From Saccharopolyspora erythraea NRRL 2338 (GTDB lineage: Bacteria; Actinomycetota; Actinomycetes; Mycobacteriales; Pseudonocardiaceae): DNA of 64,000 bases. Below are positions 10,154 through 16,935 of this stretch, one piece after another. The notes beneath the pieces are model-generated. The model searched no databases, had not been told where the DNA came from, and worked only from the letters and a program-made list of their open reading frames with translations. Location of the stretch: the NCBI RefSeq assembly GCF_000062885.1, contig NC_009142.1, positions 7,801,584-7,865,583 of the forward strand, given 5' to 3'. The number at the start of each line of letters is the position of its first letter. The stretch's first letter is position 1. Both the position numbers and the translations under genes were made by a program.

Positions 10154-12856
10154 TCAGCGTCCTCCGTATCCGAGGCACACGAACCCGGATTCGCCGTGTG
10201 CTGCCTGCGCCTGGGCCAGCGCCGTCGCCGGCGGCACCCCGCGCCGCAGCGCGGAGTGCAACGCGACCATGACCTCGGCCGTGCGTTCGTCCGGCACCGG
10301 GATCACGCTCGCGATCACCGTCGCCGTGCCGCGGCCGAGCAGTGCGGCAGCCAGCCCGCTGAGCTGGTCGCATGGGCTGATCGCCGACTGGCCGACCTCG
10401 CACGCCGAGAGCACCACGGTCGTCGGGCCGCGGTGCAGGCGGTCCAGGTCGTAGCCGTAGAGCGGACCGTCGGCGAGGTCGAGGCAGGAGAGCAGCGGTT
10501 GGTCGCTGCGGAAACGGCCGTGCGCGGCGACGTGCACGGTGCCCGCTCCGTCCACTGTGTCCAGAACGCGTTCGGCCGTCGCGTCCGCTCCCGTGAGCAG
10601 TTCCCCACCTGCCGCAGCATGCAGGTCGGTGACCTCGCGCTCGGCATGCTCCAGGCCGGGCCCCGCCACCCAGACCTGCCGGGTCGCGGGAGTCGTCTCG
10701 GCGATGTCGGCCGCTCCGCGCAACCAGCACCGCAGCGAAGGGGCGACGGTCACACCGCGTCCATGCAGCGGCGGTAGCGCCGCCCACGGAAGCGCGTGCA
10801 GGCTTCCGGTGGGCACGACCACGAGCGGGCGCCCCCGTTGCAGTTCGTCGGCGACCGGCCCCAGCACCCGCTCGGCGATGATCTCGGCGGACCCGCGCAC
10901 CCAGCCGTCGAACATCGCGCGGACCGTGCTGTCGGGCTTTTCCGCCTGCCTGGACAGGAAGTTGCGCAACCTCTCCACCTCGGCCACCACAGCGGACTCG
11001 TCTGCCAGCGCGTGCAGCCGCACCACGCCATCCACAATGGACACCGCGCGCAGTCGACCGTCAACGGTGAAGAAGTTGAGCAGCACCGCATCGCCGAGTT
11101 CGCCGACGACGTCGCCGAGTTCCCAGCGGCCCCACGCACCTTCGGTGGCACCGTTGACGAGCATCGCGCGACGGCGCACCCGGCCTTCCAGCTCCTCGAC
11201 CCGCCGCAGCGCGCCACCGTTCCTCGAACCACGTGTGTCAGCCACCGCCGCGCGCAGCTCGACCAGCGACCGGCGCAGTTCCGGGTCGGCGGGTGGTTGC
11301 AGCGCCCGGCGCTGCAACGCGCTGGCGCGTGCGCATTCTGTCCAGCGCAACACCAGCTCCGGATCGCCGACGCGCAACGCCGCGGTCACCGCCGTGTCCG
11401 CGAGGTCGGCTGCCAGTCCGAAGGTGTGCACCCGCAGCTCGAACGCCGCCATGGGAGCCGCGTAGTTCTCGACCGCCCGCAACCCGCTCCGGCACGCGGC
11501 GAAAAGCCCCGGCAGGTCGCCTACCTGCTCGGCCAGCAGCGCCCGGGCGTGCCAACCGACCGCGAGCTGCGACGCACCCGCCCGCGGGTCATCGCTCGAG
11601 GCCGCCGCGAGGGCCAGCAGCTTGCGCGACAGTGCGGGCATGCCGGCCCCGCCCGCCACGCGACCCGCGACCAGCCACAGCTCCGCGGCCGCCGCGGACC
11701 AGCCGAAACCGGCGCACACCACGCCCGCCCGTCGCGCCGCGACCAGGGCATACCGCGAGCGGTGCCCGTTGCGGAGCTTCGCCTGCCACTCGGTGGCCGC
11801 CGCGAGCGCCACCCAGGCGGGACGCCGCTGTGCGCGGAACAACCGCCGGGCCTCACCGGCGGCTTCGACAGCGGCCCGCGCGTCGCCGTCCCGGAGGGCG
11901 CACCCGGCGAGGGCGAGCCTGGTCTCGGCCAGCCGCACAGCCCGTCCGCGGGCGGCCAGCCGGTCCGCCGCCCGCTCCATCTCGGTGCGCGCCTCAGCGG
12001 TGAGCCCGGCCGCGGCGAGCGCCTCGGCGCGGTCGACCAGCGCCTCCGGGTTCGACTCGGTGTCGAGGCCCATCGACAACGCCGCCGAGTACAGCCTCAG
12101 CGCCCTGGGCAGGTCGCCGGCCCGGAACGCCACGCAGCCGCGGTTGTGCCTGCAACCGGCGGCCCGTCCGGGCTGATCCGCCGAGGCGAAGATCCGCTCG
12201 GCGCGAGCCAGGTCGGTTTCGGCTTCTTCCAGGCCGTTCGAGTACATCCACGCGAGCCCGCGTCCGAGCAGCGCGTTGGCGACCCACCGCAGGTCCTCCT
12301 TCGACCGACGCTCGTGCGAGTGTTCGGGCTTCTCATGCGCGGAGTCCTCGTTCCCGGAGACCTGGTGCGCGTCCAACTGCGCCAGCGCCTCGGTGAGCTG
12401 GGTGATCGCCTCGGGGAACCGGTCGTTCTGGCAGTACAGCAGCCCGCGCAGGCACACCGCGCGCCGTCGGTCCCGCCCGCGCAGCCGTGGTTCGGCGGCG
12501 ACGAGGTGCTCCCAGCAGGCGTCGGTCATCCCCCGGTCGAACTCGATCCAGGCGAGGGTCAGCCGGAACTGGGCCTCGCGCTGCTCCAGCCCACCGCGCC
12601 GCGCCGCCGTCAGCCCCAGCCGCGCGTGCTTGCGCGCGTCCCGCAGCCTGCCCCGCTCGACCTCCGCGATGGCGGCGACGTGCCTGGCCAGCACCCGGAA
12701 CTCGACGTCGCGAACCGGATCCGACAGCCAGCGCTCGGCGTGGCGGAGGGCCTCCTGCGGAGCTGTGCTCGCACGCGCCCGCCACCGCAGCGCGGTCTCG
12801 ATCCTCGTCTCGCCGTCCGCACGGACGGCAGTCCCGGCGCTCAACAGACCAGCCAA
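10154..12856 (-). CDS. TPR-like repeat protein with C-terminal CHAT protease domain
   Basis: This 900-residue cytosolic protein has about 600 residues of helical repeats of TPR type (blocks such as ALLGRGLAWMYSNGLEEAETDLARAERIF), then a CHAT domain over the last 270 residues. CHAT domains are caspase-like cysteine peptidases. The dyad is visible as H779 (VHVAAHGRF) and C819 (VVLSACEVGQS). The TTG start overlaps the end of the 157-residue gene by 16 bp. Together with the sigma factor and subtilase upstream it forms a five-gene minus-strand cluster. The helical half would be the sensor and CHAT the effector; targets are unknown. Confidence 0.9.
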   Translation of the reverse strand: MAGLLSAGTAVRADGETRIETALRWRARASTAPQEALRHAERWLSDPVRDVEFRVLARHVAAIAEVERGRLRDARKHARLGLTAARRGGLEQREAQFRLTLAWIEFDRGMTDACWEHLVAAEPRLRGRDRRRAVCLRGLLYCQNDRFPEAITQLTEALAQLDAHQVSGNEDSAHEKPEHSHERRSKEDLRWVANALLGRGLAWMYSNGLEEAETDLARAERIFASADQPGRAAGCRHNRGCVAFRAGDLPRALRLYSAALSMGLDTESNPEALVDRAEALAAAGLTAEARTEMERAADRLAARGRAVRLAETRLALAGCALRDGDARAAVEAAGEARRLFRAQRRPAWVALAAATEWQAKLRNGHRSRYALVAARRAGVVCAGFGWSAAAAELWLVAGRVAGGAGMPALSRKLLALAAASSDDPRAGASQLAVGWHARALLAEQVGDLPGLFAACRSGLRAVENYAAPMAAFELRVHTFGLAADLADTAVTAALRVGDPELVLRWTECARASALQRRALQPPADPELRRSLVELRAAVADTRGSRNGGALRRVEELEGRVRRRAMLVNGATEGAWGRWELGDVVGELGDAVLLNFFTVDGRLRAVSIVDGVVRLHALADESAVVAEVERLRNFLSRQAEKPDSTVRAMFDGWVRGSAEIIAERVLGPVADELQRGRPLVVVPTGSLHALPWAALPPLHGRGVTVAPSLRCWLRGAADIAETTPATRQVWVAGPGLEHAEREVTDLHAAAGGELLTGADATAERVLDTVDGAGTVHVAAHGRFRSDQPLLSCLDLADGPLYGYDLDRLHRGPTTVVLSACEVGQSAISPCDQLSGLAAALLGRGTATVIASVIPVPDERTAEVMVALHSALRRGVPPATALAQAQAAHGESGFVCLGYGGR

Positions 12857-13314
12857 TCCGCGACGGCGGCAGCGGACCGCTCCTGCCGGAACACCACGCT
12901 CAGCGGTCCCCGGGGCACGTCGTCCACCGCGAACCCACCGCGTTCGTCGAGCGCACCGACGCTCTCGCCGGTGGCGTGCCGGAGCACGACGTCACCGGCG
13001 GGGGCGCTGTGCCCGGGACGGCCGAGCACCAGCCCCACCGCGCGGAACAAGCCTTCCGCGACCGGGATCAGGTCCATCTCGAGCATCCGCCCGGGCATCG
13101 CGAACGTGAGCACCCTGGTCTCGCCCATGCCCGCGCGCCGGGTCCTCGCCGGAGCGTCCGCCGAGTCGCCGATCAACCGCAGCGCCGAGCCGCCGCCCGA
13201 CCACTTCCGCGACGCCGCCGCATAGGCGGCCTCGACGAGCCGCCGCGGCGCCGGATCGCAGGCCTCGAACAGGTCGCGCAGGACCCGCAGTTCGGCCGGA
13301 GGTCGCACCCTCAT
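12841..13314 (-). CDS. Conserved-type hypothetical protein of the CHAT cluster
   Basis: This 157-residue protein has a helical N-terminal part (RVLRDLFEACDPAPRRLVEAAYAAASR) and a beta-rich C-terminal part. The stretch ESVGALDERGGFAVDDVPRGPLSVVFR resembles carboxypeptidase-regulatory-like or transthyretin-like strands. Its ATG overlaps the stop of the preceding small ORF and its end overlaps the CHAT start, so it is translationally coupled to the protease. In comparable actinobacterial clusters an accessory gene occupies this place; its function is unknown to me. Confidence 0.75.
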   Translation of the reverse strand: MRVRPPAELRVLRDLFEACDPAPRRLVEAAYAAASRKWSGGGSALRLIGDSADAPARTRRAGMGETRVLTFAMPGRMLEMDLIPVAEGLFRAVGLVLGRPGHSAPAGDVVLRHATGESVGALDERGGFAVDDVPRGPLSVVFRQERSAAAVADWLVC

Positions 13315-13634
13315 CGCACAGCCCTGCCTTCCACGGACGTACCGGCTCGCCGGTGGAGAACGGAGTGGACGGACAGTCCGGACCGATCAGCCGGCTCTCC
13401 CGCGTGCCGATCGCGTTGCGCGGCACCGGGCAGCGGTTCTCGCGCGGAGATCGCGCATGAGACCGGGGCCGGCCGAACCGGGCGGTCAACATCGTCCGGC
13501 GCAGGGTGGACGCGCTGCCGGACAAGTGGTCGAGCACGGCCTCGGGTCCCGCGAGCAAGACCACCAACGCCAGAACGCGACACCGTGCCGAGGACGTAGG
13601 CTCCGGCGCCGCCACAGCTCTCCAGCAGGAACAT
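13311..13634 (-). CDS. Doubtful small ORF between sigma factor and 157-aa gene
   Basis: This 107-codon frame starts at an ATG overlapping the sigma factor stop and ends at a TGA overlapping the next ATG, the spacing of a coupled gene. The first 18 codons (MFLLESCGGAGAYVLGTVS) have strong G/C third positions. After that the third-position bias moves to another frame, which reads VLALVVLLAGPEAVLDHLSG. Either a base has been gained or lost, or the real product is short. The alternative frame would begin at GTG 13615 and has no nearby stop. Confidence 0.35.
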   Translation of the reverse strand: MFLLESCGGAGAYVLGTVSRSGVGGLARGTRGRARPLVRQRVHPAPDDVDRPVRPAPVSCAISAREPLPGAAQRDRHAGEPADRSGLSVHSVLHRRAGTSVEGRAVR

Positions 13635-14215
13635 CACGCCGCCTCCTCCGCTCCGCCGAGCGAGGTCATCCGCTGCCGGAGCAGCGCCAGGCACCTGCTG
13701 CGCTTGGGCCCGATGGTTCCGCGCGCCATGCCGAGCGCCTCGCTCACCTGCGCGTAGCTGGTCTCCGGTGCGACCGCCAGCACGCGCAACAACTGCTGGC
13801 AGCGCTGCGAGAGCTGGCCGAACGCCTGCCACAACCGTGCGGCGGTGATCGAGCGCAGAGCCTTGCTCTCGGGTCCGTCGTCGTGGTCCGGGACGTCGAA
13901 CAGCGACGGGTCCACACCCGTCGGCGCCTCGCGCTGACGGGCCCGGGCGAGCCGGGCGGACTCGCGGCGCGCAGTGGTCACCAACCACCCCGAGAGGGCG
14001 TCAGGACTTCGCAGCCGCTCGAGGTTCTCGGCCAGCAGCAACCAGGTGGCCTGGTACACGTCCTCGGCGTCGGCGGGGTTCGAGCAGTACGCCCTGGCCA
14101 CACCCCACACCACCGGGCCGTTGCGGTCCACCAGCTCCTCCCACGCCTGAGCGCTACCGCGCGCCGCGCTGTGCAGCAGTGCCGCCGAGCCACCGACTTC
14201 CCGGACCTCGCGCAT
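13634..14215 (-). CDS. ECF-type RNA polymerase sigma factor
   Basis: This 193-residue sigma-70 family protein keeps region 2 (NPADAEDVYQATWLLL, with the DA-DVYQ core-binding signature) and region 4 with its helix-turn-helix (SYAQVSEALGMARGTIGPKRSRCLALLR). No anti-sigma gene is adjacent. It lies 84 bp downstream of the subtilase gene and directly upstream of the small ORF, 157-residue gene and CHAT gene. A 13-bp inverted repeat sits just before its start codon, overlapping the ribosome-binding purines, so its translation or transcription may be controlled there. Confidence 0.88.
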   Translation of the reverse strand: MREVREVGGSAALLHSAARGSAQAWEELVDRNGPVVWGVARAYCSNPADAEDVYQATWLLLAENLERLRSPDALSGWLVTTARRESARLARARQREAPTGVDPSLFDVPDHDDGPESKALRSITAARLWQAFGQLSQRCQQLLRVLAVAPETSYAQVSEALGMARGTIGPKRSRCLALLRQRMTSLGGAEEAA

Positions 14216-14223
14216 GACGACTT

Positions 14224-14274
14224 CCCTTCGCTTCTCGATCGATCAACACGCCCGCGAATAAGAGAAGCGAAGGG
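14224..14274 (-). promoter_or_regulatory. 13-bp perfect inverted repeat in the sigma factor leader
   Basis: The arms 14224-14236 and 14262-14274 (CCCTTCGCTTCTC on the + strand and its complement) are separated by 25 nt containing GATCGATC. The proximal arm ends nine bases before the ATG. The purine stretch AAGGGAAG that should act as ribosome-binding site lies in the arm and its edge, so a folded mRNA would mask it. It could instead be a DNA operator. Confidence 0.65.
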
Positions 14275-14299
14275 GTCCGCTGGATTCAGGTTTTCCCGG

Positions 14300-15412
14300 T
14301 TAACGCCCGAACGGGTAACGCCGCCGCGCCTCCTGCCGGGCCGACGCCGCCGTACAGCCAGCGTCCAGCGCGACCGCCGCGGCCGCCGCGACCCTGGGAG
14401 CGGCGAAGGAAGTCCCGCTCCAGCGCGCGAATCCGTACGTGCGCACGCCCTTCGGCCGCAACCGGACGTAGCTGCTCACGACGTCCACTCCCGGCGCGGC
14501 GGCGTCCACCCACGGCCCGGAGTTGGAGAAGTCCGCGAGCGCGCCGTCCCCACCCGTGGCGGCGACAGCGATCACCGAGGGCAGCGCCGCGGGCCAGAAG
14601 GGCCGCGAGAGCGAGTGGTTGCCGGCCGCGGCGACGACCACCGCGGCACCGAACCGTTCGACCTCCGCGCGCAGGACCGGCGGGCAGACGTCGTCCGGGG
14701 TGTGGCAGCCGGCGGTCAGCACGACGACGTCCGGCCGCTCGTCCAGCAGCGAGCGCAGACCCGCGGCGACCGTGACGTCGTCGGTGAACCCCAGCGGGGA
14801 AAGCACGCGGCGGGACCGGATCACCGCGCCGGGTGCGTGCTGGAGCACCACACCGGACACGAAGGTGCCGTGCCCGGCCTGGCGGTCCTGACCGGAATCG
14901 TCGTCGGCGTCGAGCACTTCGGGCACGCTCTCGAACCACGGCCGCGACCGGAACCACGGATGCGGGTCCAGGCCGGTGTCGAGCACGCCGACGGTGATCC
15001 GCCGACGCCACGGCACGTCGGGAGGGGCGGGAACCGGTGGGGCGTCCTCGACCTCGGACCCGGTGCCCCAGATCACCGGCGCGCCGAACATCTGCGCGGA
15101 GCCGAGGTGCACGTGGTTGGCCGCGACCCCGTCGTGCTCCCGGGCGATGTCGACGCATCTGTCCTGCTCAGCAGGCCGCAGCCGGAACATGGCCACGCTG
15201 AGCGCGGCATCGTGGCGGACCTCGTCGACCCAGCGGCGCAGCCTGTCCGCCACCGCGCCCGCGGCATCGGCCGGCGCCACCAGCTCGCCGCGCCGCACCA
15301 GGCACTCCGCGGGTCCCTCGGGGTCGTGCAGCAGGAGGTCATGACCGCGTCGCGCCCAGCGGTCCCGGAGCTCAGCGGCGCTGAAAGCTTCGCTCTGATC
15401 CACAAGGGACAC
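14300..15412 (-). CDS. Intracellular S8 (subtilisin-like) serine peptidase
   Basis: This 370-residue protein has a complete subtilase triad: D145 (VLDTGLDPH), H181 (QAGHGTFVSG), oxyanion N265 (AAAGNHSL) and S335 (WSGTSFAAP). An Ala/Asp-rich domain of about 110 residues precedes the catalytic core. There is no signal peptide and no membrane segment, so it should act in the cytosol. It is the first gene of the minus-strand cluster that continues with the sigma factor and the CHAT protease. The start is GTG 15412, or GTG 15403. Confidence 0.9.
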   Translation of the reverse strand: MSLVDQSEAFSAAELRDRWARRGHDLLLHDPEGPAECLVRRGELVAPADAAGAVADRLRRWVDEVRHDAALSVAMFRLRPAEQDRCVDIAREHDGVAANHVHLGSAQMFGAPVIWGTGSEVEDAPPVPAPPDVPWRRRITVGVLDTGLDPHPWFRSRPWFESVPEVLDADDDSGQDRQAGHGTFVSGVVLQHAPGAVIRSRRVLSPLGFTDDVTVAAGLRSLLDERPDVVVLTAGCHTPDDVCPPVLRAEVERFGAAVVVAAAGNHSLSRPFWPAALPSVIAVAATGGDGALADFSNSGPWVDAAAPGVDVVSSYVRLRPKGVRTYGFARWSGTSFAAPRVAAAAAVALDAGCTAASARQEARRRYPFGR

Positions 15413-15651
15413 TTTGGGTGAGCATGATCAGGTCCACAGCGGACACGCCATCGGGCGTCCGGCAATCACCCGACCGGCGAGCTGTTCGACCTTGGCAAGG
15501 CGGTGCTCTACCTGAAGAATCAGAACGGTCTCCCGGTGTTCACTGCATTCGGCGGCACGACACCGCCTGTACGGGTGGTTGAACCCCGAGTGAGGTGCCG
15601 ACCATCCTGGCGCGGGAGACGATACGGCGCGAACGTACCGACAGGGCGGTG

Positions 15652-16935
15652 ATGAGGGTGACCGGATACTGCGCATCGCGCAGCCGCTGGTCCCGACTCC
15701 GCGCCCACGCCACCCGGGCGGTGGTCGTCGGAGGCCTCCTCACCGGCGCCTGGTTCGCGGGCGCGTCCGTAGCCACCGCCGACGGCAAGTCGGGCGACGA
15801 CGCCGCAAGCGTCGGGATCACCTTGCACGGCGAAGCCCCGCAGCCATTACGGCAGGAGGCTCAGTTCCGCCTCGTGCCCGCCCGGGAGGGCGGCACCGCG
15901 CAACAGCAGGACGCAACAGCGCGGAACGGTGACGCAGAGGCCCGGCAGGGCCCGGCTGCCGGCGGAGCCGCCCAGTCGAGCACCGAGGCCGATCGCCTCG
16001 AGACACCCCGGCAGGGCGGGACCGCGGAGAGCGTCGAAGCCCGGTCGAGCAACACCGCGGACCGCGTCGAGGCGACCCAGCAAAGCAACACCGCGGACCG
16101 CGTCGAAGCGGCTCAGCCAACCGGAACCGCGGACCGCGTGGAAGCGGCCCAACAGGGCGGAACCGCGGACAGGATCGAACAGAGCGGCGCCGCCGACAGG
16201 ATCAAGACCGGCTCAGCGGCTCAGGGGATCGAGAGCACGCAGCACGCCAGTGCGGCGGATCGGGTCCAGACCGCGCAGGCGGACCGGGCGGCCCAGAACG
16301 GCAGCGCCGCGGACAGGATCGACGCCGCGCAGCACGGCAGCGCCACGAATCGAATCGAGGCGGCGGACCCGAGCGGTCGAGTGCAGGCGGCAGCGCCCGC
16401 GCGCCGAGTCGAGATGGCACAGCAACCCAAGCCCACGGCGGCTGTGCCGCACATGCGGCCTCCCGACCTGCCCGACGTCGCACTGTTCGCCGACAAGCCG
16501 GACCCCAGCGAGCCGGAAGCGGAAACACCACCGGTCCTGGAAGACTTCGGACCGCACCTCGGCCAGCCCGCGGCTCCCGTCGCATCGCACGACTTTCTCC
16601 TGTCGTCGCAGGTGAGCACCCAGGAAGCGCAAACCGCGCCCACCGGTCCCGTTGCGCGCGACCGGACTTCACCCCTCGCGGCAACAGGTGTCTCTCGGCA
16701 CGAGCGCCACACCCACGATGACCAGGCGCCGCTGCCGCCGGCTCCCGCCCCGAATCCGCCGCCGACGTCAGCGGGGGGACCCTCCGTCGGCGCGGGCGGT
16801 GGTATGCGCACCATGGCGGCGATCCTGCCGTCCGGGCCCGACCTGCCCGACGCGCTGCCGAGCACACCTGCCGGCCGGGAGACGGTCCCGCCCGGCAGGC
16901 TCGTGCCGTTCGAACTGCCCGCTTCGCCCGACTGA
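15652..16935 (+). CDS. Secreted low-complexity protein with ADR(V/I)EA 12-residue repeats
   Basis: This protein of about 427 residues has an N-terminal export signal: basic RSRWSRLRAHATR, hydrophobic AVVVGGLLTGAWFAGA, likely cut after ASVATA. The middle third (DNA 15976-16400) is about ten repeats of roughly 12 residues with the core xTADRVEAAQxx. The C-terminal third is Pro-rich and disordered (LPPAPAPNPPP). No enzyme motif and no membrane anchor are seen. It is divergent from the subtilase gene with about 240 bp between them. Start choices are ATG 15652, GTG 15649 or GTG 15658. Function is unknown; a cell-wall or matrix protein, or a protease substrate, is inference. Confidence 0.7.
   Translation: MRVTGYCASRSRWSRLRAHATRAVVVGGLLTGAWFAGASVATADGKSGDDAASVGITLHGEAPQPLRQEAQFRLVPAREGGTAQQQDATARNGDAEARQGPAAGGAAQSSTEADRLETPRQGGTAESVEARSSNTADRVEATQQSNTADRVEAAQPTGTADRVEAAQQGGTADRIEQSGAADRIKTGSAAQGIESTQHASAADRVQTAQADRAAQNGSAADRIDAAQHGSATNRIEAADPSGRVQAAAPARRVEMAQQPKPTAAVPHMRPPDLPDVALFADKPDPSEPEAETPPVLEDFGPHLGQPAAPVASHDFLLSSQVSTQEAQTAPTGPVARDRTSPLAATGVSRHERHTHDDQAPLPPAPAPNPPPTSAGGPSVGAGGGMRTMAAILPSGPDLPDALPSTPAGRETVPPGRLVPFELPASPD

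Follow-up and report, generated by a model that had tools for sequence, protein, structure and literature searches.

How is a sigma factor controlled when its genetic neighbors are two proteases? The question is raised by four genes on the minus strand between positions 10154 and 15412 of a 64,000-nucleotide stretch of the Saccharopolyspora erythraea NRRL 2338 genome (the window), which lies inside a single 8,212,805-base contig. They encode a 370-residue S8 subtilase (15412-14300; Pfam Peptidase_S8, 2.6e-26), a 193-residue extracytoplasmic function (ECF)-type sigma factor (14215-13634; TIGR02937, 1.3e-23), a 157-residue protein that we call p157 (13314-12841), and a 900-residue caspase/separase-like cysteine protease in which tetratricopeptide repeats (TPR) are joined to a CHAT domain (12856-10154; Pfam CHAT, 3.1e-34). 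CHAT proteases are known from type III-E CRISPR and from gasdermin systems, and for most bacterial CHAT proteins we know of no substrate. Our tentative answer, held with slightly less than even confidence, is that the cluster is an ECF54-type module working as a cytoplasmic, protease-gated sigma switch. In this arrangement p157, a candidate anti-sigma factor and protease substrate, would restrain the sigma factor until the CHAT protease, the S8 protease, or both cut it.

An earlier note on this DNA recognized no named system in the cluster, but this is no sign of novelty. Section 3.3 and Table 2 of a review (PMC8999054) list the same composition around ECF54 sigma factors, and because such a context is already on record we count the four-gene composition as known. 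From a conserved context of carboxypeptidase, subtilase and CHAT protein, those sections report a proposal of proteolytic control without an anti-sigma factor, with Geodermatophilus amargosae as the model. Our cluster shares the ECF sigma factor and the subtilase, CHAT and "carboxypeptidase" context. In a 64-row sigma tree, the 57 rows of the family, among them eight orphan paralogues, split from the seven other sigma rows (100/98), and a Geodermatophilus chilensis sigma factor (locus L133), with p157, CHAT and S8 around it, falls inside the same clade. The likeness to ECF54 is judged by this context and the L133 sigma factor; the group's representative is SFT86700.1. The primary ECF54 papers are reportedly those of Casas-Pastor et al. 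(2021) and Huang et al. (2015). Where the two differ is in the candidate inhibitor: the review's ECF54 account reports no anti-sigma factor, whereas here p157 is tightly spaced with the sigma factor. What we add is the nature of p157, the sigma-p157 spacing, genome-level co-occurrence, a pro-subtilisin fold, a promoter-like element and the intact catalytic residues. In the open-access literature, a whole-word search for ECF54 gave only this review and a paper on E. coli from chicken. Searching there for CHAT domains together with anti-sigma factors returned only the paper on Craspase, the type III-E CRISPR protease, and some of the added points may be in print elsewhere.

The closest pairing in the cluster is that of the sigma factor with p157, which the earlier note overlooked. 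Across 75 related loci, with start codons set by our own rule, the two genes are spaced by -32 to +55 bp in 69, with 39 of these overlapping; gaps of 83-154 bp occur in five, and in one (L144) the genes are not neighbors. Because of this pairing, the target of the proteases is suggested to be p157 rather than the second protease, and its spacing and co-occurrence make p157 a candidate anti-sigma factor. In the window itself, a 319-bp insert (13315-13633, no strand assigned) separates the two genes. It is not conserved: among 21 genomes searched, it is matched at this place only in the own genome and in G001, a member of the same genus (79%). Part of the insert resembles an Hsp70 gene on the opposite strand (G000:C1:3429480-3429626; 68% over about 130 bases). 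The earlier note had described a cluster of five genes, the fifth a small, doubtful open reading frame (ORF) that falls in this insert; we discard that ORF and retain S8, sigma, p157 and TPR-CHAT.

What kind of protein is p157? The window copy has no match in Pfam, NCBIfam or PADLOC, and no known anti-sigma domain was found. The predicted fold consists of two N-terminal helices, a variable linker in which Arg59 is nearly invariant, and a C-terminal β-sandwich. CarboxypepD_reg is weakly matched by 23 of 55 family members (best 2.7e-4), but this is a regulatory-like domain rather than a peptidase, and we found no peptidase domain in p157. The "carboxypeptidase" listed around ECF54 sigma factors is probably p157. 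This identification bears on the published ECF54 view, in which the sigma factor has no anti-sigma partner and is itself the target of the proteases, which hold its level down until a signal halts proteolysis, and p157 would be an accessory. Some paralogues of the sigma factor do occur away from p157, as that view would allow. On the other hand, a listed carboxypeptidase that is probably p157, in which no such domain was found, fits it poorly, as does a p157 gene that overlaps or closely follows the sigma gene in most loci and is co-inherited with CHAT. We consider the published view unlikely for this cluster.

To what extent do the four genes travel together? We collected 80 loci selected by CHAT, the best 80 of at least 547 confirmed relatives and several of them cut by contig ends, and all four genes were present in 68. 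Of the remainder, six lack only S8 and two lack only the sigma factor, while two hold just CHAT and S8, one just CHAT and p157, and one CHAT alone. Gene order differs between loci. We also drew 198 genomes from across the phylum (thresholds E<=1e-20 for CHAT and E<=1e-4 for p157). CHAT was found in 23 and p157 in 24, including all 23 with CHAT; the additional genome, G170, has a weak match within a 3682-aa frame. The p157 profile was built partly from genomes in this draw, and 10 of the 23 CHAT genomes are absent from its rows. A second set of 36 other genomes, 35 from the same family and one from the same order, gave a similar picture at stricter thresholds (CHAT E<=1e-40, p157 E<=1e-6), though some are the same strains as profile rows: CHAT in 30 and p157 in 31, with both in 30 and neither in five. 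One of these genomes, G034, has sigma-p157 with no CHAT found. The earlier note had expected the CHAT, S8, sigma and 157-residue families to keep company in other genomes, and the 68 complete loci and the 30 genomes sharing CHAT and p157 strongly bear this out.

Of the 25 CHAT matches that the phylum draw gave outside the own genome, 21 were examined in their surroundings, as 20 regions. The four genes stand together in 13, and S8 accompanies CHAT in 19; the sole region without S8 (L061) carries sigma-p157. For the six remaining regions, p157 is located at a distance on the contig or at another place in the genome, and in three genomes (G143, G175 and G219) the distant p157 directly adjoins a sigma factor of the same family. 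Among 29 p157 loci from the phylum-draw search, a same-strand family sigma factor adjoins p157 in 23; the loci without one are L165, L177, L185 and L188, plus two weak matches, L184 and L187. Because p157 and CHAT share genomes even when far apart, and the distant p157 sits beside a sigma factor, the genes behave largely as two units, sigma-p157 and CHAT-S8, inherited together even where they are unlinked.

Such behavior is hard to square with loose co-inheritance, in which the set would serve a response to protein-folding or proteolytic stress, and sigma factor, p157 and proteases would form no tight circuit. In favor of that explanation, both subtilases and TPR proteins are widespread, and the order of the genes is variable between loci. 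CHAT nevertheless co-occurs almost perfectly with p157, an otherwise unknown protein, unlinked copies included, and we regard this explanation as quite improbable.

Some genomes carry several copies of these genes. One locus (L071, 3243-14681) contains tandem sets of CHAT, S8 and p157, and the Geodermatophilus locus L133 has a second p157 beside S8. Four genomes (G022, G008, G027 and G032) have four to six CHAT matches each, some of them fragments, along with three to five p157 matches. This suggests an expansion of CHAT and p157 in some genomes of the family.

Are the two proteases capable of activity? As the earlier note had read them, S8 has a full catalytic triad and the CHAT protein a His779/Cys819 pair, and both prove to be conserved. 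Of 44 aligned S8 sequences, 43 retain the whole triad of Asp145, His181 and Ser335; the remaining one (L148) appears frameshifted near Ser335. The CHAT pair is intact in all 81 ORFs from the 80 loci. S8 has no apparent signal peptide and is predicted to be pro-subtilisin-like, with a prodomain-like segment (about residues 37-103), a flexible linker (about 104-122) and the catalytic domain (about 125-370). The predicted packing of the prodomain resembles that of unprocessed pro-subtilisin, and because of this fold a zymogen step for S8 is plausible. S8 also weakly matches IetS profiles in PADLOC (best 1.1e-4), and no match to the IetA ATPase was found among the four cluster proteins, which that scan covered. 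None of the four contains a membrane-like segment in a Kyte-Doolittle scan (19-residue mean, maximum 1.57).

The closest parallels for the CHAT protein come from type III-E systems. Its profile matches 7y9x_B, labeled Csx29 (7.5e-6, and 4.5e-6 in a second search), with the catalytic cysteine aligned. It also matches 8d9f and 7x8a, each called "CHAT domain protein" (1.3e-7 and 1.4e-7), which we take to be type III-E structures. In the Csx29-Csx30-CASP-sigma system, as described in PMC10028731, a TPR-CHAT protease cleaves the inhibitor of an ECF-like sigma factor. Our cluster is similar in having a TPR-CHAT protein whose His/Cys pair aligns, a sigma factor of ECF-like type and a third protein that may be both inhibitor and substrate. 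It differs in that Csx30 has 565 residues whereas p157 has 157 and a predicted β-sandwich, and in its extra S8 protease. We found no CRISPR-like repeat array in positions 1-30000 of the window, only two short repeat families that both lie near 16.0-16.3 kb, and no Cas7-11 (gRAMP) was recognized among the eight neighboring ORFs that were scanned. Sigma factors freed by proteolysis of an inhibitor are also known from RseA/RsiW-type systems, according to the same source (PMC10028731). Those anti-sigma factors are membrane-bound, whereas the four proteins here have no apparent membrane segment.

A different reading starts from the proteases themselves. The S8 and CHAT proteases might activate each other (the earlier note had proposed that one may activate the other) and act on other proteins in defense or programmed death; p157 would be an inhibitor, adaptor or substrate, and the sigma factor would only set expression. 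The frequent company of S8 and CHAT fits this idea, as do p157 genes that occur with CHAT and S8 but without a sigma factor (L152, L155 and L185) and the S8-adjoining p157 of L133. There is also precedent in the gasdermin work of PMC9729208, where a TPR-CHAT protease is reported to act on a cellular partner, cleaving and activating a bacterial gasdermin. Here, however, we recognized no gasdermin, and sigma factor and p157 stand in its place; no pore-former or toxin was recognized beside the cluster, where only two of eight ORFs scanned matched Pfam at all. Moreover, p157 unlinked from CHAT accompanies the sigma factor in G143, G175 and G219, and also in G034. We judge the cascade unlikely, if slightly less so than the published ECF54 view.

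If the sigma factor is the output, what does it transcribe? Upstream of the sigma gene, TGAATC and CTCT blocks set 18 bases apart are invariant across 15 aligned sequences; in the window, TGAATC-N18-CTCTNA lies at 14288-14259 on the minus strand. Because this separate promoter-like element precedes the sigma gene, a single operon for all genes is doubtful. The exact pattern occurs in one copy in each of six genomes, always upstream of the sigma gene, and the control gave a single match across the six together. A looser pattern has one match each in 15 of the 80 loci and in the window. These counts suggest that the sigma factor regulates itself and has a narrow regulon, and we infer that it uses this element. 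An inverted repeat with perfectly matched 13-bp arms (14274-14262 and 14236-14224, minus strand) overlaps the element and extends towards the sigma start codon, so that element and repeat together span 14288-14224. When the stretch 14224-14274 was folded as single-stranded DNA, only one of 200 shuffled versions was not outdone by it.

From these pieces the switch we favor can be sketched. The sigma factor would be produced together with p157, whose N-terminal helices would bind and silence it. The protease pair would be activated by a signal that the TPR region of the CHAT protein senses, by maturation of the S8 zymogen, or by both. CHAT and/or S8 would then cleave p157, perhaps in the variable linker near Arg59, and the freed sigma factor would transcribe at least its own sigma-p157-CHAT unit from the promoter-like element. 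The outcome would be a burst that both amplifies and resets itself. A broader claim, in which we have somewhat less than even confidence, is that ECF54 sigma factors have a dedicated cytoplasmic anti-sigma factor in p157, and that the module is a widespread, CRISPR-independent counterpart of Craspase in which TPR-CHAT and a zymogen subtilase cut p157 and the sigma factor turns on its own operon. Should p157 prove to be the substrate and the sigma factor the output, a conserved actinobacterial family would gain a defined substrate, output and promoter. The view of ECF54 sigma factors as lacking an anti-sigma factor would then be corrected, and a wider non-CRISPR parallel to the CRISPR CHAT/sigma circuit would be suggested.

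Several points weigh against a p157-gated switch. The published account, as given in the ECF54 section of PMC8999054, assumes proteolytic control with no anti-sigma factor at all. Strict pairing is weakened by p157 genes that lack a neighboring family sigma factor, in two Herbidospora loci (L152 and L155) and in L165, L177 and L185; both Herbidospora genomes hold a separate locus with CHAT, p157 and sigma (L265 and L266). Conversely, p157, CHAT and S8 were undetected in the regions fetched around the eight paralogous sigma factors, apart from a weak, distant CHAT-like match in L261, with two of these regions (L262 and L267) ending at contig ends. The promoter-like element was found only in Saccharopolyspora and two close genera, the 15 loci above. 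Because loci of this kind supplied the pattern, finding it in the six genomes was partly to be expected; what is informative is the lack of a second exact copy. Finally, an acidic residue reads the P1 arginine in separase, a position that corresponds to Lys670 in type III-E TPR-CHAT, according to PMC9729208. The position aligned through Csx29 K670 is Ala860 here, and none of the 12 CHAT domains aligned has an acidic residue there; this is evidence against CHAT cutting after Arg59 in the manner of separase. If cleavage does occur at Arg59, S8 may be responsible, or CHAT using a different pocket; the residue could instead be structural.

Besides the sigma factor of the cluster, the own genome encodes another member of its family (L258, 6280-6828; G000:C1:49279-49812), with no p157, CHAT or S8 detected within the surrounding 14 kb; other genomes have orphans like it. 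Around the cluster, the two scanned neighbors that match Pfam encode an aminotransferase and a DUF445 protein. The divergent neighboring ORF on the plus strand (15595-16935) has no Pfam match; it contains imperfect repeats of 12 residues and, close to the start, a hydrophobic segment.
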